The notes under the pieces were generated by a model that worked only from the letters and a program-made list of their open reading frames with translations, was not told the origin of the DNA and ran no database searches. A program made the translations under genes and the position numbers. Source: a virus. From it: DNA of 33,871 nucleotides. This document shows, piece after piece, positions 327 through 30,546 of this stretch (the first letter of the stretch is position 1; the number at the start of each line of letters is the position of its first letter). Location: positions 1-33,871 of the IMG/VR virus record IMGVR_UViG_3300029922_001249. The stretch is one strand, 5' to 3'.

Positions 327-392
327 CTAGCTTTACAGGAACGTTGATGTAAAATCCAGGATCAATCGGTGGAATATGGCACCTCCTTTCTG

Positions 393-1049
393 CTATTCGG
401 TAGCATTGAGAATGAAGTCAAAAGCTGCAAGCTCCTCGGCGCCTTCGATCTTTACCAAAGCATTCTGCCAGTCCATGTATTTAAACATGAGGCCAGCTTT
501 TGTAGGAATCATGCCGCCAGCATACTGGCCAAAAAGGATACGATCGCCGACTTTGAAAGCAGCTTTAGCTTTGGCCTCGGCACCCATAGAGACTACCACA
601 CCTGTTTGCGGGAGGTTCTTGGAGGTTTTTGGAATAATGATTGTGGCACCAACGCCTTTGCAGTCTGGACAAAGCTCATCCTTCTCGACTGACTTGTAGT
701 CGCCGCCGCATTCAGAACAGGGAATGTCTTTCCTTGCTTCTGATGCTGCTGATCCAAGTGTGTTTGAAATTTGAGCGATCTCTTCTAGAGAGTACTTGCG
801 TCCTGATCTACCGCAAGTTACACACTCACACTGGTGCTTGATACGCTTTCGACCTTTGCAAGTCTTGCATTCATAACCTGTGACAGCGAGGTCAATACTG
901 ACAATAATCCGCTCTCCTAAACCCTCAAAGGTGTAAGGAAATCCAGGAAAAGAAACCTTGTTTGATCCGTCAAGCACAAGATCCTTTACGCTAATCTCAC
1001 CTGCATCGTCAATCTTTTTCAGAAGTTCTGCTTCGCCTTCAAAGGGCAT
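393..1049 (-). CDS. GroES-like co-chaperonin with a DnaJ-type zinc finger inserted in the mobile loop
   Basis: A 218-residue protein, about twice the length of GroES (about 95). Residues 42-53 (EGLGERIIVSID) match the first GroES strand (PLHDRVIVKR type). Residues 135-202 match the rest: ATIIIPKTSK (mobile-loop end), VVVSMG, then VGDRILFGQYAG (165-178 region). Between them, residues 61-134 carry four CxxCxGxG-like motifs: C61-C64, C76-C79, C111-C114 and C127-C130. This is the layout of the DnaJ cysteine-rich domain, where motifs 1+4 and 2+3 each bind a zinc. The hydrophobic triplet I137-I139 falls where GroES has its GroEL-contacting IVL. Residues 1-40 are an extra N-terminal segment. The ATG directly follows the stop of the upstream gene (TAGATG). 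No GroEL is in the window, so the partner would be the host chaperonin. Fold assignment is confident; function is inferred. Confidence 0.85.
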   Translation of the reverse strand: MPFEGEAELLKKIDDAGEISVKDLVLDGSNKVSFPGFPYTFEGLGERIIVSIDLAVTGYECKTCKGRKRIKHQCECVTCGRSGRKYSLEEIAQISNTLGSAASEARKDIPCSECGGDYKSVEKDELCPDCKGVGATIIIPKTSKNLPQTGVVVSMGAEAKAKAAFKVGDRILFGQYAGGMIPTKAGLMFKYMDWQNALVKIEGAEELAAFDFILNATE

Positions 1050-2279
1050 CTACGGTCCTACCTTTCCGTTTTTTGCTGCTGGTGAATAGTACGTTTGCTT
1101 GTTCTGGGTTGTTTGTGTTATGAAACCCATTGTTTCGAGAATGAATAGGATACGATCAAGCGTCTCGCTGGTCATGTGGCGATGCAATGCTCGAAGCATT
1201 TCACGTTTGGATGCACGGCCATACTTTTCGATAAAGTCTTGTACACGTGCAGTGGCTGCTGCATCCATGCTTTCTCCAGCACCACGAAAAAGCTTTCGGA
1301 GAGAAGCTATGATTTTACCGACTTCTGCTATAGCATTGGCCATATCAAAAGCCTCAATCAGCAGGGTATCGCCGCGAGAAGCGGAGAAAATCATGGCAAG
1401 CTTTAAGACGTGTGCTTTCATCCTAGCACGAAAGTTTGCTACGGCCTCAGAATCATCTTGAGATGCGGCAGCGCGGTTCTGCTTTAGGAAGCTTTCAAAC
1501 ATCAGACGTGCCGCAGTATCAACTTTGAACTCACCATTCAGCGAGGCAATAGTTTTGAGGTCGGTTATAAGCTGATCGTATAAAGCTTTCGAGCGAGCAT
1601 TCTTTTTTAGCGGCTCCGGCCATGGAAGATCCTTGCTTGGATTCTCCGCATAGATAAACATGCATCTGCTAGAGAAACCGCCAGTAATAACCATGTGCGC
1701 TTCACGATTGACATTACGCAAAAAGTCAGGTACACTAGCAGCCAATAGACTACAGCACATGTTATCAATAAATACACTGCCTTTGTTTTTAGTTTGGTAA
1801 TCATAAGTTTTCTTGCTCCATGCCTCCTCCAGAAACTCCAACATCCACTCAGAAGCACCGAGCAATACTCGCAGCTCGGTGCTGAAAAGCAGGCAGTTAT
1901 GATCCTTTGCGCCGATCACAAGCTGCATGTTTTTAATTGTCGGTGGCGCTGACCAGCCATCTGCAATGCGTTCGAGAATGCGCTCAGCGGTTATGCGGTC
2001 ACTGAGGGTGTTTACAACCTCGGCGGGCTGAGCATCCTTGATCATATCCTCGATGATATTCATTGCTGTGCCTTTGCCAACCCCAGGCGGGGCAACCAGC
2101 ACTACAAACATGTTCGGATAAAGTGTGTACGTGCCAATCTCGAAATGTACGTTGTTTTTCAGCGCCGCACCAATAAGCGAAAGCGCACTCCAGACAATGA
2201 AATTATCCGGCGTGTCCGTATGCGGAGAGACGCAATCGAAAAATGCTTCGTGGAATGCTTTTCTCAGAACCCTAGCCAC
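1050..2279 (-). CDS. P-loop ATPase, probable replicative helicase/primase-associated (DUF3987-like)
   Basis: A 409-residue protein with a Walker A of GPPGxGKGT form (APPGVGKGT, residues 63-71), a Walker-B-like hydrophobic strand ending in FSTE (CLLFSTEL, about residue 130), and a C-terminal winged-helix-like part (RASKREMLRALHRHM). This resembles the DUF3987 group of phage and plasmid primase-helicase-like ATPases. The start is GTG at 2279, with AAAGG seven bases upstream, 12 bases after the polymerase stop. Next to a family A polymerase it is the best candidate in the window for the fork helicase, but there is no clear DnaB-type signature, so another nucleic-acid ATPase is possible. Confidence 0.7.
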   Translation of the reverse strand: MARVLRKAFHEAFFDCVSPHTDTPDNFIVWSALSLIGAALKNNVHFEIGTYTLYPNMFVVLVAPPGVGKGTAMNIIEDMIKDAQPAEVVNTLSDRITAERILERIADGWSAPPTIKNMQLVIGAKDHNCLLFSTELRVLLGASEWMLEFLEEAWSKKTYDYQTKNKGSVFIDNMCCSLLAASVPDFLRNVNREAHMVITGGFSSRCMFIYAENPSKDLPWPEPLKKNARSKALYDQLITDLKTIASLNGEFKVDTAARLMFESFLKQNRAAASQDDSEAVANFRARMKAHVLKLAMIFSASRGDTLLIEAFDMANAIAEVGKIIASLRKLFRGAGESMDAAATARVQDFIEKYGRASKREMLRALHRHMTSETLDRILFILETMGFITQTTQNKQTYYSPAAKNGKVGP

Positions 2280-2291
2280 AAGATGCCTTTC

Positions 2292-3800
2292 TTACACTAC
2301 TGGAATAAGTACCTGCTTTGGCTCCGCCGCGGCTAGAATATCTCGAAGTTTTTCCATCGCTCGTGCTACTCCTGCTCTGGAGATTTCTTTGATCTTGACT
2401 GTGGTTTGGAAGTCGTAACCGAGTTCCGCTTCGATTGGGATGTTGACTTCGATTCCATTGTGAAACTTAATAGTCCTGTCAAAGGCGGCGTTGGTTCGGA
2501 GAAGATATTTATAGACTGTTTCAGCGTCTGCTCGAATATCTTGGACAATGCTATCATGGCCTTCCTGGACGATAAATCGTTCTTGAATTCCATAGTTACT
2601 TTCGAGTTTGAGGAGAGCAAAACCGGTATTATCACCGACGACTGATTGTGGAATGTAAGCGTATGCTTCCTTGAAGACCGTCGCGTTTGAGTCGTTTGGT
2701 CTGGCATCGAGGAATTGCCTTTCTCGCCCAAAGGGCGTTACAAGCATGTGGGTTTTGGAGATCTGGTCCTTGACGTACTTGTGGAAGACAAGGTCTACTG
2801 ACGGATCATGCTCTGCTACCTTTTTGAGTAATGCTTGACAAGCGACCTCGCTAAAGCTAAAGCCTTCTTGTGCTAGGGCGTCGCTCATACGCCCGGCCTT
2901 CATATCGTAGTTGCTGGCGTGACGAGTTTTTTTACCAAGATACCTCTCCATTGAATCTTTCCACTCCCCCGGAGTTTTCGCAGCGAGCGGAATTCCAAAA
3001 ATAACACTGGCGAGTCTCGTGTGGCGGCCATATACATCTGTATCATCGCGTAGCTCTTTCAAGGCTTGATAATTCTCGCTGAGCGCCGATACTGGCCAGT
3101 CTTCGGCGGAGACTTGATCGACCATTAAAAAGATGTTTCCTGGACGTGCGACAAGGCATCGCCTGTACATTGCTGCTACGTCGCTGTGTTTAGGGAAGTT
3201 CTGAGCGTTATTTCCAAAGCCGAAAGTATGGCGTCTGGATGAACGTCTACCAGTGAGAGTTCCGGCAACGTTGTAGTTAGAGAGAAAGTACGCTTCTCCG
3301 GATCTTTCCAAGAGTCTAGCGCTAAGGTAAGAAGAGTACAACTTTCCGAGTTCTCTAATTTTGAGAATTGCTCTAATAGCAGGATCGCCTCCCGGATAGT
3401 TAAATTGATTTTTAGAGAGCATCTTCTGAAGCGCAAGCTCTCCTGTGCTGTATCCTTGTTCATAATCTCCCTCCGAGTTTTTCTTTGTGATTTTTACTAC
3501 TTCGTAGCCGAGGTTTTTGAGGCCGGTTAGGAGTGCGAACTTTCCTTGAGTAGCATTGATGTTGATTGCACCGCTGGCATTCAAGCCTTTTATAGCTTCG
3601 TCCGGTGCATTCGCCGCGCCGACAAAAACCTTTGTACCCCATTGATTGCTGGCGATTGCTAGTTGCTGTGCAACCTTTGCTTTGACAATGGCTTTAGCTT
3701 CGGCGATCCGTTGGACATTGACGCAGATGCCACGATTACCGACATGGTAATAAGCTGCTTGAAGAGCGTGCTCATAAGATGAGGTTACCTTATCTGTCAC
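2292..3800 (-). CDS. DNA polymerase, family A, polymerase domain only
   Basis: A 502-residue protein with Pol I polymerase motifs: TGRRSS (183-188); motif A with D228 and E233 (VDQVSAED); motif B as R286-xxx-K290-xxx-H294-xxx-Y298 (KKTRHASNYD); motif C with H415-D416 (EGHDS). It should synthesise phage DNA. No 3'-5' exonuclease motifs are present; these lie in the separate gene 4136-5242. Two positions are unusual: the QxE of motif A reads SAE, and the Gly after the motif B tyrosine is Asp (NYDM). The start is GTG at 3800, with GGAGG 4-5 bases upstream, inside the end of the preceding small gene. Confidence 0.92.
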   Translation of the reverse strand: MTDKVTSSYEHALQAAYYHVGNRGICVNVQRIAEAKAIVKAKVAQQLAIASNQWGTKVFVGAANAPDEAIKGLNASGAININATQGKFALLTGLKNLGYEVVKITKKNSEGDYEQGYSTGELALQKMLSKNQFNYPGGDPAIRAILKIRELGKLYSSYLSARLLERSGEAYFLSNYNVAGTLTGRRSSRRHTFGFGNNAQNFPKHSDVAAMYRRCLVARPGNIFLMVDQVSAEDWPVSALSENYQALKELRDDTDVYGRHTRLASVIFGIPLAAKTPGEWKDSMERYLGKKTRHASNYDMKAGRMSDALAQEGFSFSEVACQALLKKVAEHDPSVDLVFHKYVKDQISKTHMLVTPFGRERQFLDARPNDSNATVFKEAYAYIPQSVVGDNTGFALLKLESNYGIQERFIVQEGHDSIVQDIRADAETVYKYLLRTNAAFDRTIKFHNGIEVNIPIEAELGYDFQTTVKIKEISRAGVARAMEKLRDILAAAEPKQVLIPVV

Positions 3801-4135: not shown

Positions 4136-5242
4136 CTACTTCAACTGTGGGCGTTGTTGGAATTCAAGTTCTTGTTGCTCCCAAACCTCATATGTTACGC
4201 AAACATCCAAACAATTGTATCGCCGGAGTTTGTCCATATGCTTTACACTCCATCCATGGCCTTCGTCCTTGTAATAAGGCTCCCGCGTATATTGCCGAGT
4301 CAAAAACTGTAACTTATGCGAAAGCTCTGGCCACAGAATATGGTGTCTTAAAAGTGTGTCTTGTACACGATCCAGCGAGATTTGGAATCCAAGAGCCTCA
4401 AAAAAAAGCGCGTCAAAATTGAAGAAGTTCTGCCCCAGTATGGGCTTTCCTTTAAGCAATAAATCCAACGCTCTCCAAAGAGTCCTATTCTCACTTGGGC
4501 TGTCACGGAATAAGTTGAAGGATATCCCGAAGTCATGGCTGTCAGCAATGCCAACGGTAATCGGGTATCCAGGATGCGGAAGAAAGGCGCTTCCTTTGCG
4601 AGGGTATACTGTTTCAATATCAATTGATAAGAGTGGCGCTTTCCTGAATCGCTCAAAACATGACAGTATTTCGTTAAGCTCAAGATTTCCATAACGCATT
4701 GTCCTTTCTGGAAGCGGCCGCAGCGTACCATGCTTTTGCCAATAGACCAGCTCGTCCTGAAGCTTTTGCAGGTCCACGTACACCGTGACGTTTCGCTCTT
4801 TCCAATCGCCGACACATCTGTCGGGACCGTAAAGTGGCATCATGTAGTGCGGGTATTGGAGAACACCGCATTGCAGCAAGCTACCGGCATACTTCTGTAG
4901 TTGGCCAGGATTTGTCTCAACGGTCTTCGGTGTACGAAGTTCTGGCAAAAACCAACCAGCAACATCGCCAATCACAATAATCAACGGAGGCTTAGAAGCT
5001 GAAAGCTCAGACTCCAAATTTGTATAAGCGTGCAGATCATCAGTGTTAGGAGCACGAGAAGTGAAATACACACTGTAAGGATCAATACCAGCTTCACGAA
5101 GCATCTTGTCAAAAACATGCCCGAGTCCTCCTGACATGAGAGTATCCTTGCCGGTTTTTGGATCGTAGTCAGAGCTATAAGGCTTTGCTAGGATACACCA
5201 GATACGTGCATTGCGATTACCGCGTGGTTTGATGTAAGGCAT
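4136..5242 (-). CDS. UDG-like domain fused to a DnaQ-type 3'-5' exonuclease (polymerase proofreading subunit)
   Basis: In this 368-residue protein, residues about 12-165 resemble the uracil-DNA glycosylase superfamily (SGGLGHVFDKMLREAGID then VYFTSR; IVIGDVAGWFL; late VDLQKL). The catalytic GEAPG-type loop and the HPS/HPA-type motif are not recognisable, so this half is probably inactive and may bind DNA. Residues about 203-355 are a DEDD exonuclease: Exo I D208-I-E210, Exo II around N275-D277 (GQNFFNFD), D295, and Exo III Y342-D346 (YNCLD). SPO1-type polymerases carry UDG-like, exonuclease and polymerase domains in one chain; here the first two are separate from the polymerase at 2292-3800. 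It probably proofreads for that polymerase. Confidence 0.82.
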   Translation of the reverse strand: MPYIKPRGNRNARIWCILAKPYSSDYDPKTGKDTLMSGGLGHVFDKMLREAGIDPYSVYFTSRAPNTDDLHAYTNLESELSASKPPLIIVIGDVAGWFLPELRTPKTVETNPGQLQKYAGSLLQCGVLQYPHYMMPLYGPDRCVGDWKERNVTVYVDLQKLQDELVYWQKHGTLRPLPERTMRYGNLELNEILSCFERFRKAPLLSIDIETVYPRKGSAFLPHPGYPITVGIADSHDFGISFNLFRDSPSENRTLWRALDLLLKGKPILGQNFFNFDALFFEALGFQISLDRVQDTLLRHHILWPELSHKLQFLTRQYTREPYYKDEGHGWSVKHMDKLRRYNCLDVCVTYEVWEQQELEFQQRPQLK

Positions 5243-10773: not shown

Positions 10774-10971
10774 TCAACTTTCAGTCTCAATCGGCCTGTC
10801 TTCTGTGTCAGACCAGTCCTCTGGAATATCATCCTTCCAGTCATCATCTTCATACACATCTTCATCGAAGGGTTCGTCTTGCTCGTGGGCTTGGAACGCT
10901 GGCTCATAATCACCAGTTCCAAGATGCTGACGTTCCATTAGACGTTCTGCTTCATCGCGGGATTGCGGCAT
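10774..10971 (-). CDS. Small very acidic protein (65 aa)
   Basis: AAGGAGG lies six bases before the ATG at 10971, inside the last 20 bases of the FtsK-like gene. The protein is dominated by Asp and Glu (DEPFDEDVYEDDDWKDD) after a short helical start and is probably disordered. Such acidic phage proteins can act as DNA mimics, but length and composition alone do not prove this. It is the last gene before the 10.6-kb promoter region. Confidence 0.6.
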   Translation of the reverse strand: MPQSRDEAERLMERQHLGTGDYEPAFQAHEQDEPFDEDVYEDDDWKDDIPEDWSDTEDRPIETES

Positions 10972-12160
10972 ATTGCCTCCTTATTTGTTCGTTTTGCTCA
11001 ATGAGAGTTGCAATGTCTGTGATGCTAACGAACGCACTATGCGCTCGCCGTACAACGTCGTTGCCAGCTATCTTGTACAGGTAATCTCCCATACCGAGAA
11101 GATTCTGTGCGCCGTCAGCATCCAGCACAACACGACTGTCTACACGTGCCGGGACTTTGAAACACACGCGAGCTGGAAAGTTGTTTTTGATTGTGCCGGG
11201 GAGAACATCTACCGAGGGTCGTTGTGTGGCCAGAATAAGATGTACTCCGGCAGCACGAGAGATTTGGCTGATTTGTTGAAGCAGAAATTCTATACTCGGT
11301 GAACGAAGCTTCTTTTCCATCTGCATAAGCTCTGCTTCATCTTGCATAAAAACATCCGCGAGTTCATCTACGATGAGGATTTTGTACTTCATTCTGTGAG
11401 AATCAATAAGCTCTGGTCTGTCAGGATTGTAATAGCCCTCATTCATTTGATTCCACTCCCGAATGTTCCTCACCAGCCCACTCATTTGCATGTTTCTCAG
11501 TCTAACTTCTTCAAGTAACTGGACGAGGCTTGCTCTGAGGTCGCTGATGTTGTTGAGGACATATTTAACATGAGATAGTCCCCTGAATAGTACGAGATCA
11601 AGGTTTTTTGTGTCCACGAGTATAAACTCCAGCTCTTCTGGGCTGCGAAATAAAGCAAGCGAACATATAAGCTGGGCCGTGAAGACAGATTTACCTGAAT
11701 TCGTTGCGCCCGCAATGAGTAGGTGAGGTTGAGTCGCCAGATCCGCATATAGATGTTCTCCTGTAGTGGATTGGCCGAGCAACAGTGGCAAAGCCATTCC
11801 AGCGGTTTCGGTAGAAGTCATCATTTTATGGAGACAGGCATCGAAATGTATAGTTTGCCTATCCTCACGTGGCACCGCAATTGAGATTTCGCCGAGAGCG
11901 CGGTCAACGGAAACGCTTTCCACGGCGAGAGAGCCTGCAATTTCTTCTTCTTTGTTTAGCACGGAAGAAAACTTCGGCTCGCCGACAGGTTGGAAGTAAA
12001 AGGTACGTACAACTGGGCCTTCTACCAGACGTGTAAAAACCGCGCCGAAGCCGAGTACTAGCATCTTACGTGTTAGGACAGAAACTTGTTTCTGTACTAG
12101 CGGTGAGTAGGATGCTAGAAGAGCGGCTTGTGCGCGGGCGGTTTCAGAAGGAAGCCTCAT
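10952..12160 (-). CDS. FtsK/SpoIIIE-type DNA translocase motor
   Basis: The 402 residues contain the whole FtsK alpha/beta motor: DNA-contact strand region to about 135, Walker A GATNSGKS (151-158), the FtsK-specific FILVDTKNLDLVLFRG (179-194), Walker B ILIVDE (261-266), and ATQRPSVDVLPGTIKNN with SRVVLDADGAQNLLGMGD (311-359). These segments closely parallel bacterial FtsK. There is no membrane domain and no gamma (KOPS-reading) winged helix at the C-terminus. Two tiny membrane proteins are encoded immediately upstream, overlapping by ATGA. The motor probably moves on phage double-stranded DNA in replication, segregation or conjugation-like transfer; packaging is done by the terminase at 22940. 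Family certain, role inferred. Confidence 0.93.
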   Translation of the reverse strand: MRLPSETARAQAALLASYSPLVQKQVSVLTRKMLVLGFGAVFTRLVEGPVVRTFYFQPVGEPKFSSVLNKEEEIAGSLAVESVSVDRALGEISIAVPREDRQTIHFDACLHKMMTSTETAGMALPLLLGQSTTGEHLYADLATQPHLLIAGATNSGKSVFTAQLICSLALFRSPEELEFILVDTKNLDLVLFRGLSHVKYVLNNISDLRASLVQLLEEVRLRNMQMSGLVRNIREWNQMNEGYYNPDRPELIDSHRMKYKILIVDELADVFMQDEAELMQMEKKLRSPSIEFLLQQISQISRAAGVHLILATQRPSVDVLPGTIKNNFPARVCFKVPARVDSRVVLDADGAQNLLGMGDYLYKIAGNDVVRRAHSAFVSITDIATLIEQNEQIRRQYAAIPR

Positions 12161-22939: not shown

Positions 22940-24811
22940 TTGAGCGAACGAGAAACAAACCAACGTGTGCGGGATATACTCCGGTCTCTTGAGGTAGGAG
23001 AGATCGGAGATACCTTTGTGCCGCGGTCTACAGTTCTCGGATATAATCTCATACCTACAGAAATTGCAAAATCTCCGACAGAGAAAAAGCAAATCTATCG
23101 TGCGAATTCTTTGATGGACTTGTACTATTTCAGCACTATCGTAATGGGCAAGGACCGATTTTCAAAGAATCCGGATAAAGCTCACAATCTGCATTATCAA
23201 ATGTGTCTCACGGTCATGAAGGATGGCCTCAAAGAAGGCATTGAGATACCGCGCGATCACTTCAAGTCCACAGTATACTCTGAGTGCTTTCCAATCTGGC
23301 GCGCTTTGCCCTTCGGCCACCGTGAGGAAGACTTCTTTACCAGTGTTGGCTACACCGACCTCTATATTGAGTGGATGCGCCGTACACATTCACAAGACAT
23401 TCGCATTCTACTTGTCTCAGAAACCATCAAGAACGCCATTAAGCTCGGCATCCGTATCTCAAACCATTACGAGAACAACGCCTTCTTTCGCCATCTCTTT
23501 CCTGAGATTATGCCAACAGAAAAGGAGACGTGGACAAATGAGTCTCTCCATCAGCGGCGCACTCCCATTGGCCGTGGTCAAGGTGAAGGAACCTTTGACT
23601 TCATTGGTGTCGGTGCTGCTCTTCAGTCGCGGCACTACAACGTCGTCGTACAGGATGATCTTGTTGGAAGAGAAGCCCGTAAGAGTTCGATTGTCATGGC
23701 TGATACCATTGACTACCACCAAATCCTCGTAGGCGCAACAGACAATGACCCGAATAATCCTGGTAGAGACTTTGATGAGATAGTAGTAGGAAATCGCTGG
23801 AGTCATGATGATCTCAACTCGCACATTCGCCAAGAAGAGCCATACTTCAGTTGGACTACGCATAGTGCTCTTGGTGGCTGCTGTGCTTTGCACTCTTTTG
23901 GCCAGCCGATTTTTCCGGAAGCTTTCACAAGAGAAAAACTCCTTCGCTGGAAGCGTCGTTTGGGTAGCTATCACTTCTCCTGTCAGTTTCTTAATTATCC
24001 TATTGATCCGTCTAAGGCTAAGTTTAACATGGCGGATTTTCGCTACTTCCATTTCGAGAAGGTAACTGGTGCTCTGGCTATACCAAAAGAATCTGAGACA
24101 ATGTCTCGGCTCTTCGAAACTACGCAACCTCAGCAATATCGTATCGTGGTGCGACACCATGTTGCCGCCGGCGATGTAGAAAAAGACATCTTCCCACGAA
24201 ACCTTGACCGTTACATGGTTGTTGATCCAAACCACGGCGGTGCACACATGGGCCAAGAGGTCGGTAAGGATGGACGCTGCCGCCACGCTATCGCTGTGAC
24301 TGGTATAAGTCGCAGTCCCCGTAGAATCTATCTCCTCGATCAATGGGCAAAAGCCGCTCCGATTGATGAGTTTGTAAAAAAGATTTTCTTCTTTGCAATC
24401 AAGTGGAAGCTTCGCGTCGTCTATGTGGAAGCAGTCGCCGCACAAAAGTTCCTCCTCTATCATCTGAACTACTTCGTAGAAGAGCACAAGCATACTCACC
24501 CAGAGATTGCTGGAATTCAGTTTCTGCCTTTGAAAACTCCACAGAATGCAAATGCCAAAGCTGAGCGCATTGAGAACTTCATTCCAATTGTCGAGCGCCA
24601 CGAACTCTGGCTTGATGCTAACAATTGCATCGAAACCAAAGAAGAAGCAGAGCAGTACGGCCAGCGCAAAGGTTTGATTGATCTTCTAGATGTTCTCTCC
24701 TACGGGCCGCAGGTATGGAAGTTTGATACAGTCTCTGAAGAAAAGATCAATGAATTTCTTGCTAAACAAATGGCGCAATATCGTCGCCGCGTAGCTTCTG
24801 CGGTAGCTTAG
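22940..24811 (+). CDS. terL: Terminase large subunit (packaging ATPase and nuclease)
   Basis: A 623-residue protein. The N-terminal ATPase has a TerL-type Walker A (PRDHFKST, 104-111) and Walker B VVVQDD (235-240). The nuclease half has D429 (VVDPNHGG), E497 (VYVEAV) and D581/D584 (LIDLLDVLSYGP), as in RNase H-fold terminases. It packages phage DNA into the procapsid through the portal. The start is TTG at 22940; its ribosome binding site is weak (AAGCGG) and hidden in a small hairpin, so a downstream GTG cannot be excluded. The family assignment is not affected. Confidence 0.9.
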   Translation: MSERETNQRVRDILRSLEVGEIGDTFVPRSTVLGYNLIPTEIAKSPTEKKQIYRANSLMDLYYFSTIVMGKDRFSKNPDKAHNLHYQMCLTVMKDGLKEGIEIPRDHFKSTVYSECFPIWRALPFGHREEDFFTSVGYTDLYIEWMRRTHSQDIRILLVSETIKNAIKLGIRISNHYENNAFFRHLFPEIMPTEKETWTNESLHQRRTPIGRGQGEGTFDFIGVGAALQSRHYNVVVQDDLVGREARKSSIVMADTIDYHQILVGATDNDPNNPGRDFDEIVVGNRWSHDDLNSHIRQEEPYFSWTTHSALGGCCALHSFGQPIFPEAFTREKLLRWKRRLGSYHFSCQFLNYPIDPSKAKFNMADFRYFHFEKVTGALAIPKESETMSRLFETTQPQQYRIVVRHHVAAGDVEKDIFPRNLDRYMVVDPNHGGAHMGQEVGKDGRCRHAIAVTGISRSPRRIYLLDQWAKAAPIDEFVKKIFFFAIKWKLRVVYVEAVAAQKFLLYHLNYFVEEHKHTHPEIAGIQFLPLKTPQNANAKAERIENFIPIVERHELWLDANNCIETKEEAEQYGQRKGLIDLLDVLSYGPQVWKFDTVSEEKINEFLAKQMAQYRRRVASAVA

Positions 24812-25076: not shown

Positions 25077-25406
25077 ATGACAATTGATCCGCAGCAACTT
25101 ATGTTATTCTACATTGCCAATCAAGCTGCATCGGCTTTGGTGCAGGCTTTACCTGCACCAAATGGAAATGTAGTGTACCAGTTTTTCTATAAGTTTGTAA
25201 ACTTGTTAACAGCGGACTTTAAGACTTTCAGTGCGCAAATGCCGATGCCACAGTTTCAGTACACTCTCTCGGCGCCGCAGGTGCCTGGAAGCACGAGTGC
25301 CACGGAAACAATCACCTCTAACGTTACAAAGACAGTGGCCGATCCAGTGGCTTTAGCTAATATGGTTGCTGGAACAAATGCTACAATCATTTCGAGTGCC
25401 CTCTAA
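25077..25406 (+). CDS. Hypothetical protein (109 aa)
   Basis: TAGGAG lies before ATG 25077. The product (MTIDPQQLMLFYIANQAASA...) has a hydrophobic N-terminal segment and a long Thr/Ser/Ala-rich C-terminal part. The stop overlaps the portal start as TAATG. No family is recognised; it may be a small virion or morphogenesis protein. Confidence 0.55.
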   Translation: MTIDPQQLMLFYIANQAASALVQALPAPNGNVVYQFFYKFVNLLTADFKTFSAQMPMPQFQYTLSAPQVPGSTSATETITSNVTKTVADPVALANMVAGTNATIISSAL

Positions 25407-27361
25407 TGCCATATCAGCCACCTACAGAAGTTACCGAGAAAGAGTTTGGACCGGACAACTACAAAAAGCTGTGCGAGTTCATCAAGGAAAAAGTTGAGCA
25501 TCTTGACCGGCGGCTCCAGACATTTCGCACGGAGAAACTGCCAGAGTATGTGCGCTTGTATAAAGCTCGGCCAAAGAATCAATCTGCTGATTGGCCGTGG
25601 CCTGGCGCAGCAAATCTAGTCATTCCCATAATCGGCACTGCTTGTGACGAGTTGCTAGCCCGTATTATGGGTGGCATTTATATGTACGATCCACTCTGGG
25701 CAGCCACGATGAGTGGTGATCTTCCCTCGAAAGATGGAGAAGAGTTAAAGCAAATTGTGCAAAGCTTCCTTATGGACATGGCATATGATCCAGATGAGCT
25801 GGACTTATACCGCGTTGAGCAAAGTGCTTTTCACAGCGCTATCAAATATGGCACAGGGATTATCTATACACCATATGAATACGAGAGTGAGGTCGAACGA
25901 GTATATCTTGATGGTGGTTTAGAGGATGGTAATCCGGTTAGATCTGAGTCCAGGGTTTTTGTAAAGCGAGATGGTCCTCATCCAGAGCTGCTGCCGCTCA
26001 ACAGGTTTATCTTTGATCCATCTGTTCCAAAGCTTGAGAACATGAAGTTGATGGGCCATATCGACTCTCTGGATATGTGGGCTTTACAGGATTTGAAGTC
26101 TAAAAGTCCATATTACAAGCAGTCAGACATTGACAAGCTTCTCGCATCTCCAGATGCAGTTCAAGAAACTGAAATGGAGCGTGAAGTTAACGAGCAGTTT
26201 GGGATTGAATCCACTGGCGTAGATGCCGGAGCGGCGCGATGGTACATTTACACGTTGTTCTTTAAGTTTGATGTTCAAAGAAAGACCTACTCTTTCCAAG
26301 CAAAGTATCACAAGAAGAGCCGGAAGATTCTTTGGATAGCCTTTAACAACTATCCAAAGAACATGCTTCCATACCAGGACATGAAACTTGCATATGACGA
26401 TGAATCCTATCTCGGCACCGGCTTTGCTGAGATGATTCATATGATCCAGACGGAGCTTTCTAACAATAACAACTGGCGCACAAATAATCGTAACATGGCT
26501 ATGCTTGGTGTCTGGAGAGCAGATCCGGAATCCAAGCTTACCTCGATGCTTGATATTTTTCCTGGTGTTGTACTTCCAGCGAAAGAAGGAGAGCTTGAGC
26601 ATATTAAATCAGCAGCGGACCTTGGATATAGCGATGGGCCAGATCAGTTTCACATGGCTATTGCAAAGGAACGTACTGGAGTAGATCCGGCGACTGGTGG
26701 AACTGGCGGTGGAATTGTAAATCAAAAGCGTGGCATCTACAGTGCTGCCGGCACTTCCATGGTTATGATGCAGCAGAATAACCGAAACAACTTGCGCACT
26801 GGTGATATGCGCTCAGCACATGTAAAACTTGGATTAAAGTTTCTGACAATGTACTCAAACTATGGTATCGGCTCGAGACTTGAAAAGTATGGTACACAGG
26901 CAGAGAGGCTCAAAAAAGCTCTCGATCAGTATAAAGCTGGCGTGCTTGGCCTGAGACTTCGGCCAGCCTCAGCTTCTATGAACAAGGAGCTTGAACGCCA
27001 GAATGATATTCTGTTGAGCGATCGCATGGAGCGGCTATACAACTCCCAGGCCCAGGTTATTCAAGCAATCGCTCAGCCACAAATTCCACAAGATCTCAAG
27101 CAGTACTATCTTGAAATGCTTCTTGCGACACGAGTGATGGGTCAGACTCTGTTGCGTGATTTTAACAAAGATAATACTGAGACGCTTCTACCGAATGTCT
27201 CAAACATTATCGAAGCCGCAATGCAACAAGCAGCGCAAGCTGCGGGAGCAGGAGCAGGAAATGGAAATCAACAAAGTGGGAGACCTAATCCCGTATCGAC
27301 AGTTCCTCAAGGAATTGTGGGGCAGGGAGGAGTTCCAGCCGGTGCTGGGACTGCTCAATAG
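25406..27361 (+). CDS. Portal protein
   Basis: A 651-residue protein in the expected position after TerL, with the portal-type N-terminal stretch (SADWPWPGAANLVIPIIG, then DELLARIMGGIYMYDP), a long alpha/beta body (GTGIIYTPYEYESEV; SNNNNWRTNNRNMAMLG), and helices toward the C-terminus (LLATRVMGQTLLRDF). The C-terminal 40 residues are Gly/Gln/Pro-rich, likely disordered. It forms the ring through which DNA enters. The assignment is by size, order and pattern rather than a short diagnostic motif. Confidence 0.75.
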   Translation: MPYQPPTEVTEKEFGPDNYKKLCEFIKEKVEHLDRRLQTFRTEKLPEYVRLYKARPKNQSADWPWPGAANLVIPIIGTACDELLARIMGGIYMYDPLWAATMSGDLPSKDGEELKQIVQSFLMDMAYDPDELDLYRVEQSAFHSAIKYGTGIIYTPYEYESEVERVYLDGGLEDGNPVRSESRVFVKRDGPHPELLPLNRFIFDPSVPKLENMKLMGHIDSLDMWALQDLKSKSPYYKQSDIDKLLASPDAVQETEMEREVNEQFGIESTGVDAGAARWYIYTLFFKFDVQRKTYSFQAKYHKKSRKILWIAFNNYPKNMLPYQDMKLAYDDESYLGTGFAEMIHMIQTELSNNNNWRTNNRNMAMLGVWRADPESKLTSMLDIFPGVVLPAKEGELEHIKSAADLGYSDGPDQFHMAIAKERTGVDPATGGTGGGIVNQKRGIYSAAGTSMVMMQQNNRNNLRTGDMRSAHVKLGLKFLTMYSNYGIGSRLEKYGTQAERLKKALDQYKAGVLGLRLRPASASMNKELERQNDILLSDRMERLYNSQAQVIQAIAQPQIPQDLKQYYLEMLLATRVMGQTLLRDFNKDNTETLLPNVSNIIEAAMQQAAQAAGAGAGNGNQQSGRPNPVSTVPQGIVGQGGVPAGAGTAQ

Positions 27362-29586: not shown

Positions 29587-30546
29587 ATGCCTCAAGTACG
29601 AGCGAAATTTCCACAACTTATGCAGCCGGGGCTTCGTAAAATCTACTTCGATAGCCTCGATAGCCAGCTCAAAGCTTCAGATTATCCGAAGGTGTTTCAC
29701 GAAGTTGATTCGGATTCTGAGTACGAACAAGAGCTGGAAATGGCGGGCGTTTCTATTCTACAGGAAAAGCCCGAAAACGCCTCAACTGCTTACACAGAAA
29801 TGAAGCAGGGTGCTTCTAAGCGTGTTGAACCTCTGACATACTCTTTGGGTATTCGTACCTCGAAGGAATTGTATGACGATGATAAGTATGGGTTGGTAGG
29901 TAAAAAGGGACCGACTATGCTTGCTCGTTCTGCTGCCTTTACCAAAGAGATGATTGCGTGGAATGTATTCAACCAGGGCTTTACCAGTGCCGTCACCACA
30001 TTCGACGGCAATCCGCTGTTCTACAATCAGCATGCTCTTCTCGGTGGTGCTTATGCTACCCAGATTGCTCCTGGAGCGGCGGGTGTTATTAGTGCGCCTG
30101 GCACATATCCTAATCGGCCCCCGGTGGACGTGGACTTCAGCGTTGCTGGATTACAGCTTGCTACCAATCATGCTTCTCGGATGATTGATAACATGGGCTT
30201 TCCGATTCGACTTCGCTGGGTCAATCTGATCACGCCTCCTGAGCTTCGGTTCCTTGTTCGTGAGATTCTTGGTTCTTCGGGTAAACCTTACACAGCAGAC
30301 AACACCATCAACTCTCTGCTGCCCGAGGATTACAAGAACATCGAAGTTCCTTGGCTCAATAATCCTAGCGCTTGGTTCTTGGTTGCAGAGAAGCAGGACC
30401 ATGCTTTGGAGGTTATCAACCGCGAAGCACCCTCCACGGACTTTGACGACGACTTCGATACGGATGCGATCAAGCAGAAAACTCGTATGCGTGTTGCTGC
30501 ATGGTGCCCTCGTTGGCAGGGAGTGTGGGGTACTCAGGGACCGTAG
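29587..30546 (+). CDS. Major capsid protein (Mu gpT-like, HK97 fold)
   Basis: A 319-residue protein. The N-terminal alpha region (LRKIYFDSLDSQL), the SYSLGI/RTSKELYDDDKYG part, and the central TFDGNPLFYNQHALLGG followed by ASRMIDNMGFPIRL match the pattern of Mu-type major head subunits. AAGGAG lies before the ATG and no other long gene follows at once. It should form the icosahedral shell. A hairpin follows the stop. Confidence 0.78.
   Translation: MPQVRAKFPQLMQPGLRKIYFDSLDSQLKASDYPKVFHEVDSDSEYEQELEMAGVSILQEKPENASTAYTEMKQGASKRVEPLTYSLGIRTSKELYDDDKYGLVGKKGPTMLARSAAFTKEMIAWNVFNQGFTSAVTTFDGNPLFYNQHALLGGAYATQIAPGAAGVISAPGTYPNRPPVDVDFSVAGLQLATNHASRMIDNMGFPIRLRWVNLITPPELRFLVREILGSSGKPYTADNTINSLLPEDYKNIEVPWLNNPSAWFLVAEKQDHALEVINREAPSTDFDDDFDTDAIKQKTRMRVAAWCPRWQGVWGTQGP

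Follow-up and report, generated by a model that had tools for sequence, protein, structure and literature searches.

A co-chaperonin gene with a cysteine-rich insert

The stretch of DNA analysed here, called the window throughout, is a virus record of 33.9 kb (33,871 nucleotides) from a tailed phage, in which the replication genes lie on the minus strand and the terminase, portal and capsid genes on the plus strand. The minus strand carries the exonuclease part (4136..5242) and the polymerase part (2292..3800) of a family A DNA polymerase, a DUF3987/primase-helicase gene (1050..2279) and, as the last gene of this operon, a co-chaperonin gene with a zinc insert (393..1049, 218 aa), recognised from its open reading frame, its PF00166 match, its relatives and a structure model. 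The preliminary description had given no strand for this gene. The order exonuclease - polymerase - DUF3987 - co-chaperonin is characteristic of the window's clade (clade A), where DUF3987 is the conserved upstream neighbour. The ATG of the co-chaperonin gene follows immediately 3' of the TAG stop codon of the upstream gene, as read from the sequence, and a purine-rich AAGGTAGGA (1056..1064, minus strand), about 7 bases 5' of the ATG, is a likely ribosome-binding site. The plus strand encodes the terminase large subunit (TerL, 22940..24811), an SU10-like portal protein (25406..27361) and a major capsid protein of 319 aa (29587..30546), a candidate client that is not large.

Some further features of the window were noted. 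Past the co-chaperonin stop codon lies a strong ribosome-binding-like AAAGGAGGT (375-391, minus strand); the open frame behind it opens with ATT in place of a usual start codon. An FtsK/SpoIIIE-like protein is encoded at 10952-12160 on the minus strand, with a strong PHROG match (5.3e-77). The split of the family A DNA polymerase into separate exonuclease and polymerase genes is kept in about 18 related contigs, in some of which extra ORFs lie between the two.

Comparison of the 218-aa protein with the Cpn10 profile PF00166 gave 34.4 bits (E=2.3e-8) over residues 136-183, above the gathering score of 21.1, and PF00166 was found in 26 of the 28 related contigs. The N-terminal half, containing LGERIIVSID, lies outside this match and was placed by alignment with GroES and by the model. 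The first Cpn10 strands, YTFEGLGERIIVSID, span residues 39-53 (891..935, minus strand; model strands at 40-42 and 47-52). The alignment with E. coli GroES stays collinear on either side of the insert, as the preliminary description had proposed for both flanking segments: GERIIVSID pairs with the first GroES strands and IIIPKTSKNLPQTGVVVSMG with the end of the mobile loop and the next strand, followed by KVGDRILF and the C-terminal strand. The hydrophobic triad of the mobile loop, I137-I138-I139 (633..641, minus strand), corresponds to GroES IVL and is followed by P140. Retention of this triad, also part of that description, is borne out by conservation, since position 137 is I, L or V in 59/59 aligned sequences; P140 is present in 49/59. 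The second half of the barrel, residues 149-203 (441..605, minus strand), is placed by the PF00166 match and by Foldseek. Within it, alignment with GroES places a shortened roof loop at residues 157-165 (555..581, minus strand), 9 residues long where E. coli GroES has about 15. The roof beta-hairpin of GroES is thus missing, a feature that varies within the Cpn10/GroES family (gp31 is without it) and is not strictly defining.

An AlphaFold2 model built with 8 close relatives was poor (pLDDT 40) and was discarded, whereas the model built with 59 sequences reached pLDDT 84.8 and pTM 0.69. In the latter, residues 135-203 make up one half of the barrel, which agrees with the earlier assignment of 135-205 to a Cpn10 barrel. 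The top Foldseek matches in the PDB were Cpn10/GroES structures, namely 4pj1 (E=9.9e-5), 8wuw, 3nx6, 8wuc and 4v4o; chain O of 4v4o gave a TM of 0.71 of target over 168 columns, some of the Foldseek alignments spanning the insert, and T4 gp31 (1g31) gave a TM of 0.60 of target. Among predicted viral proteins the best named matches were viral co-chaperonins, and the sequences of solved structures that matched the window protein were all co-chaperonins. An alcohol-dehydrogenase GroES-like domain was considered and rejected, having appeared as a single weak match in one relative only. The profile, the model with its GroES and gp31 matches and the large family described below bear out the topology originally suggested, a single Cpn10 fold with a zinc module inside its mobile loop.

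The putative zinc module in the mobile loop

The insert comprises residues 58-134 (about 75 residues; 648..878, minus strand), as delimited by alignments and motif conservation. All of its features lie on the minus strand. The outer motif 1, C61-C64 (858..869), has both cysteines in 59/59 sequences, and the outer motif 4, CPDCKGVG (C127-G134; 648..671), has them in 58/59. Between these lie an inner motif 2, most likely C74-x-C76 in the window's clade (822..830), two helices at residues 88-98 and 100-106 of the model (732..788 for the stretch 88-106), which clade B lacks, and a conserved inner motif 3, C111-C114 (708..719). Across the relatives, the strand after the loop mostly follows the final cysteine motif at a constant distance of 16 residues. 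Four CxxCxGxG-like motifs had been proposed at C61, C76, C111 and C127. Four cysteine pairs are indeed present; motif 4 alone follows CxxCxGxG strictly, and the second motif is better placed at C74-x-C76. Among the cysteines of the window protein (C61/C64, C74, C76, C79, C111/C114 and C127/C130), all except C79 are conserved in the window's clade. In relatives, A, S, T or H stands in place of C79, and five of these relatives (L033, L037, L038, L045 and L064) keep the CxC without C79. From this conservation, the predicted inner zinc site of the window protein is probably C74/C76 with C111/C114, not C76/C79.

The DnaJ profile PF00684 scored 14.8 bits on the window protein, below its cut-off of 32.7, in the profile comparison that the preliminary description had suggested; distant relatives reached 24-29 bits (at most 29.1, in L047), still under the cut-off. 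When the GTDB genomes were scanned with clade B member L051 as query, its zinc region retrieved bacterial DnaJ, with the J-domain HPD in 16 of 17 matches inspected; the matches covered the zinc region alone and were nearly all DnaJ. Weak profile matches of the zinc region also include anti-TRAP and Q proteins, and a BSD2 profile and BSD2 structures are among its matches. No match to a J domain, with its HPD, was obtained for the co-chaperonin. Judged by its sequence, the insert is a DnaJ-type module, and the term DnaJ-like fits the module, not the whole protein. Common descent of the insert from DnaJ is likely, not proven, because likeness among CxxCxGxG modules is weak evidence of descent and BSD2 and anti-TRAP are also similar.

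In DnaJ, the outer zinc is held by motifs 1 and 4 and the inner zinc by motifs 2 and 3. Along a tree of the family built without the insert columns, there were about six changes in which the inner pair (2+3) disappeared or appeared as a unit, with the outer pair (1+4) retained. These unit changes fit a nested arrangement with a predicted outer 1+4 and inner 2+3 zinc.

Distribution, variants and genomic setting of the family

Searches of IMG/VR contigs with growing alignments gathered 62 distinct related proteins, more than 60 of which have the nested design, so that other proteins with both domains in the same order, for which the preliminary description had proposed a search, do exist in number; 59 sequences were aligned. 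At least 46 have four CxxC; seven have two only, which were taken to be the outer pair, though ambiguously so in L128. The longest insert, with six CxxC in the mobile loop, belongs to L047 (4833-5573), whose frame ends at the contig edge. Three relatives, L056 (4983-5663), L111 (2947-3768) and L190 (4710-5480), have two further CxxCxGxG-like motifs, forming a second pair, within the roof loop, as if zinc modules were accepted by both exposed loops. Two zinc-motif-only matches (L081 and L082) were dropped, Cpn10 being absent from both contigs. In close pairs, dN/dS lies at about 0.02-0.12 for the Cpn10 core; the insert has higher values, mostly <0.4. Core and insert alike are under purifying selection, and the insert varies faster.

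The nested protein was not found in annotated phage genomes by tblastn. Of the weak matches there, one fell inside an annotated antitermination protein; the others that were inspected belonged to a CxxC protein of Polaribacter phage Freya that is unrelated, to a protein of CxxC repeats from a huge phage and, in a Bacteroides phage, to a plain GroES. The GTDB genomes gave no match with a clade A query and no nested protein with the clade B query. The plain GroES (87 aa; L154 1492-1755, QIG64938.1) is from Bacteroides phage SJC03, where it is annotated as a hypothetical protein, and matches to this stretch occur in Bacteroides phages DAC16, DAC19, DAC20, DAC22 and DAC23. A 510-aa protein of a 642-kb uncultured phage (L155 385-1917, LR756502.1) has a long series of CxxCxG-type repeats at its end; no sign of a co-chaperonin was seen in it.

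In clade B the co-chaperonin gene lies upstream of TerL and the portal gene, with a small-terminase-like gene before it in some contigs. The window's own TerL and portal fall in the same clusters as those of clade B, and relatives of this TerL have the co-chaperonin gene just upstream. When TerL served as the starting point of a search, which included some contigs already known from the first searches, 53 of the 61 contigs that had at least 1 kb of upstream sequence showed a co-chaperonin gene near TerL. The remaining eight comprise one with the gene elsewhere, six with <2.5 kb upstream and a 15-kb contig (L228) with none. Because 53 of the 61 carry the gene near TerL, the co-chaperonin looks like a core gene of a large phage group and not a passing acquisition. 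A Cpn60 or phage-encoded GroEL was not found in 28 related contigs, most of which are probably fragments, and therefore a host partner would be needed.

A putative lid for host GroEL and its alternatives

The nested domains, the retained triad, the conserved cysteine pairs, the purifying selection and the synteny are directly supported. We consider it fairly probable that the protein is a phage co-chaperonin which, like gp31, closes host GroEL as its lid in place of, or in competition with, host GroES and carries its own holdase-type zinc domains. We infer that the Cpn10 barrels would form a ring and that the I-I-I triad at each mobile-loop end would insert into the GroEL apical domains; docking on host GroEL is argued because this GroEL-binding triad is kept, with I, L or V at position 137 in every aligned sequence. 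With so short a roof loop, the dome would probably be open at the top. The first half of each mobile loop would hold a DnaJ/BSD2-type zinc module with an outer zinc (1+4) and usually an inner zinc (2+3), and because the module lies N-terminal to the triad, seven such modules would encircle the GroES-GroEL junction. Such a zinc collar may bind non-native phage virion or packaging proteins, which would thereby gain preferred access to the chamber. The free-standing DnaJ-type zinc protein ZnJ2 holds unfolded proteins (PMC5818400), and gp31, which has no roof loops, replaces GroES for capsid folding (PMC6318259); by analogy with this holdase activity and this folding role, a lid that recruits phage proteins is suggested. 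Enlargement of the cage for a phage capsid, put forward in the preliminary description, was rejected as a main reason, the major capsid protein having only 319 aa.

Some observations count against a GroEL lid. With about 75 residues beside the triad, the insert could get in the way of docking, a few members (L097, L098 and L099) show a degenerate triad region, and the best NCBIfam score for cellular GroES, 31.5 bits, falls short of the equivalog/subfamily cut-off of 96. A normal cage is large enough for the capsid protein, and the window's clade has the gene within the replication operon, not beside virion genes.

In clade B the gene immediately precedes TerL and portal and sometimes follows a small-terminase-like gene. 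This position would also suit a Cpn10-fold oligomer that makes no use of GroEL and serves head assembly or DNA packaging, its zinc modules touching terminase or portal. We regard this as unlikely, since it gives no reason for the family-wide retention of the GroEL-binding triad, and the clade A gene sits in a replication operon. The anti-TRAP and Q proteins among the weak profile matches point to a nucleic-acid or regulatory factor, in which a zinc domain like that of anti-TRAP or a Q antiterminator would be displayed on a Cpn10 barrel that serves oligomerisation alone. Such a factor would not need a Cpn10 with a retained triad, the genome scan retrieved DnaJ instead and no DNA-binding feature was found; we give it little credence.

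Phage proteins often attack host machines, and the docking anatomy would be the same if the protein occupied GroEL and blocked host folding instead of helping phage proteins. A conserved core gene that adjoins structural genes in clade B is hardly what a takeover inhibitor would be expected to be, and in the known case of a phage Cpn10, gp31, the co-chaperonin is productive (PMC6318259); this role appears distinctly improbable. A chance resemblance, or an artefact of frame or assembly, could be read into the sub-threshold DnaJ score and the poor eight-sequence model. It is nevertheless refuted already by the family and its probability is negligible: more than 60 distinct proteins share the nested order, the Cpn10 scores are from a curated profile, the 59-sequence model is confident and selection is purifying. 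A frame error or misassembly between the two halves, named earlier as a possible source of the arrangement, is further ruled out by a 100% identical protein in two other contigs from other metagenomes.

Among known systems, the putative GroEL lid described here resembles T4 gp31 in being a phage-encoded Cpn10 fold with an altered mobile loop, a missing or short roof and likely docking on host GroEL. The structural match is moderate, however, and the mobile loop of gp31 is simply a longer flexible stretch (22 residues, PMC6318259). No folded cysteine-rich domain is present in it, in agreement with the preliminary description. Bacterial GroES/Cpn10 and the ordinary phage GroES of SJC03 share the barrel, the triad (followed by proline in many) and the C-terminal strand, but have about 8-10 residues where the window protein has its zinc module. 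The cysteine-rich domain of DnaJ (Hsp40) has the same four CxxCxGxG-type cysteine pairs and probably the same outer and inner pairing, whereas the window protein is without the J domain and the C-terminal substrate domains; moreover, the spacing is shorter in clade B, and the window's clade has the helical insertion and the CxC inner motif. In BSD2 and ZnJ2, too, the zinc domain acts as a holdase without a J domain (PMC5818400), although these are free-standing chloroplast proteins outside any chaperonin lid. Cpn20 is likewise an enlarged co-chaperonin, and 7ekq is the best PDB profile match of clade B, but in Cpn20 the Cpn10 domain is duplicated and no foreign domain is nested. An engineered human Cpn10 scaffold carries foreign peptides in its mobile loop and, with suitable linkers, keeps its heptamer (PMC5118791); in that case the foreign sequences are man-made short peptides that replace the loop.

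The kind of protein, a phage co-chaperonin, is already known; what appears to be new is the folded zinc module in the GroES mobile loop. A zinc or DnaJ insertion in GroES was not found in the literature covered, which left out most subscription papers, and an earlier description is possible. Tentatively, and with rather more reserve than for a phage lid as such, these proteins may make up a co-chaperonin class that is new, the lid itself bearing Hsp40-type zinc modules (at least one per subunit, in some members on the roof loop too), so that a single phage-made ring on host GroEL would perform both substrate capture and encapsulation. GroES is among the most conserved folds, and it has to grip GroEL with its mobile loop. 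If this proposal is true, Hsp40-type holding and chaperonin encapsulation would be united in one ring, giving a virus a new way to re-aim the host folding machine and offering a natural design for client-choosing GroEL lids. It also makes testable the question of why phages whose capsid protein fits the normal cage bring their own co-chaperonin.
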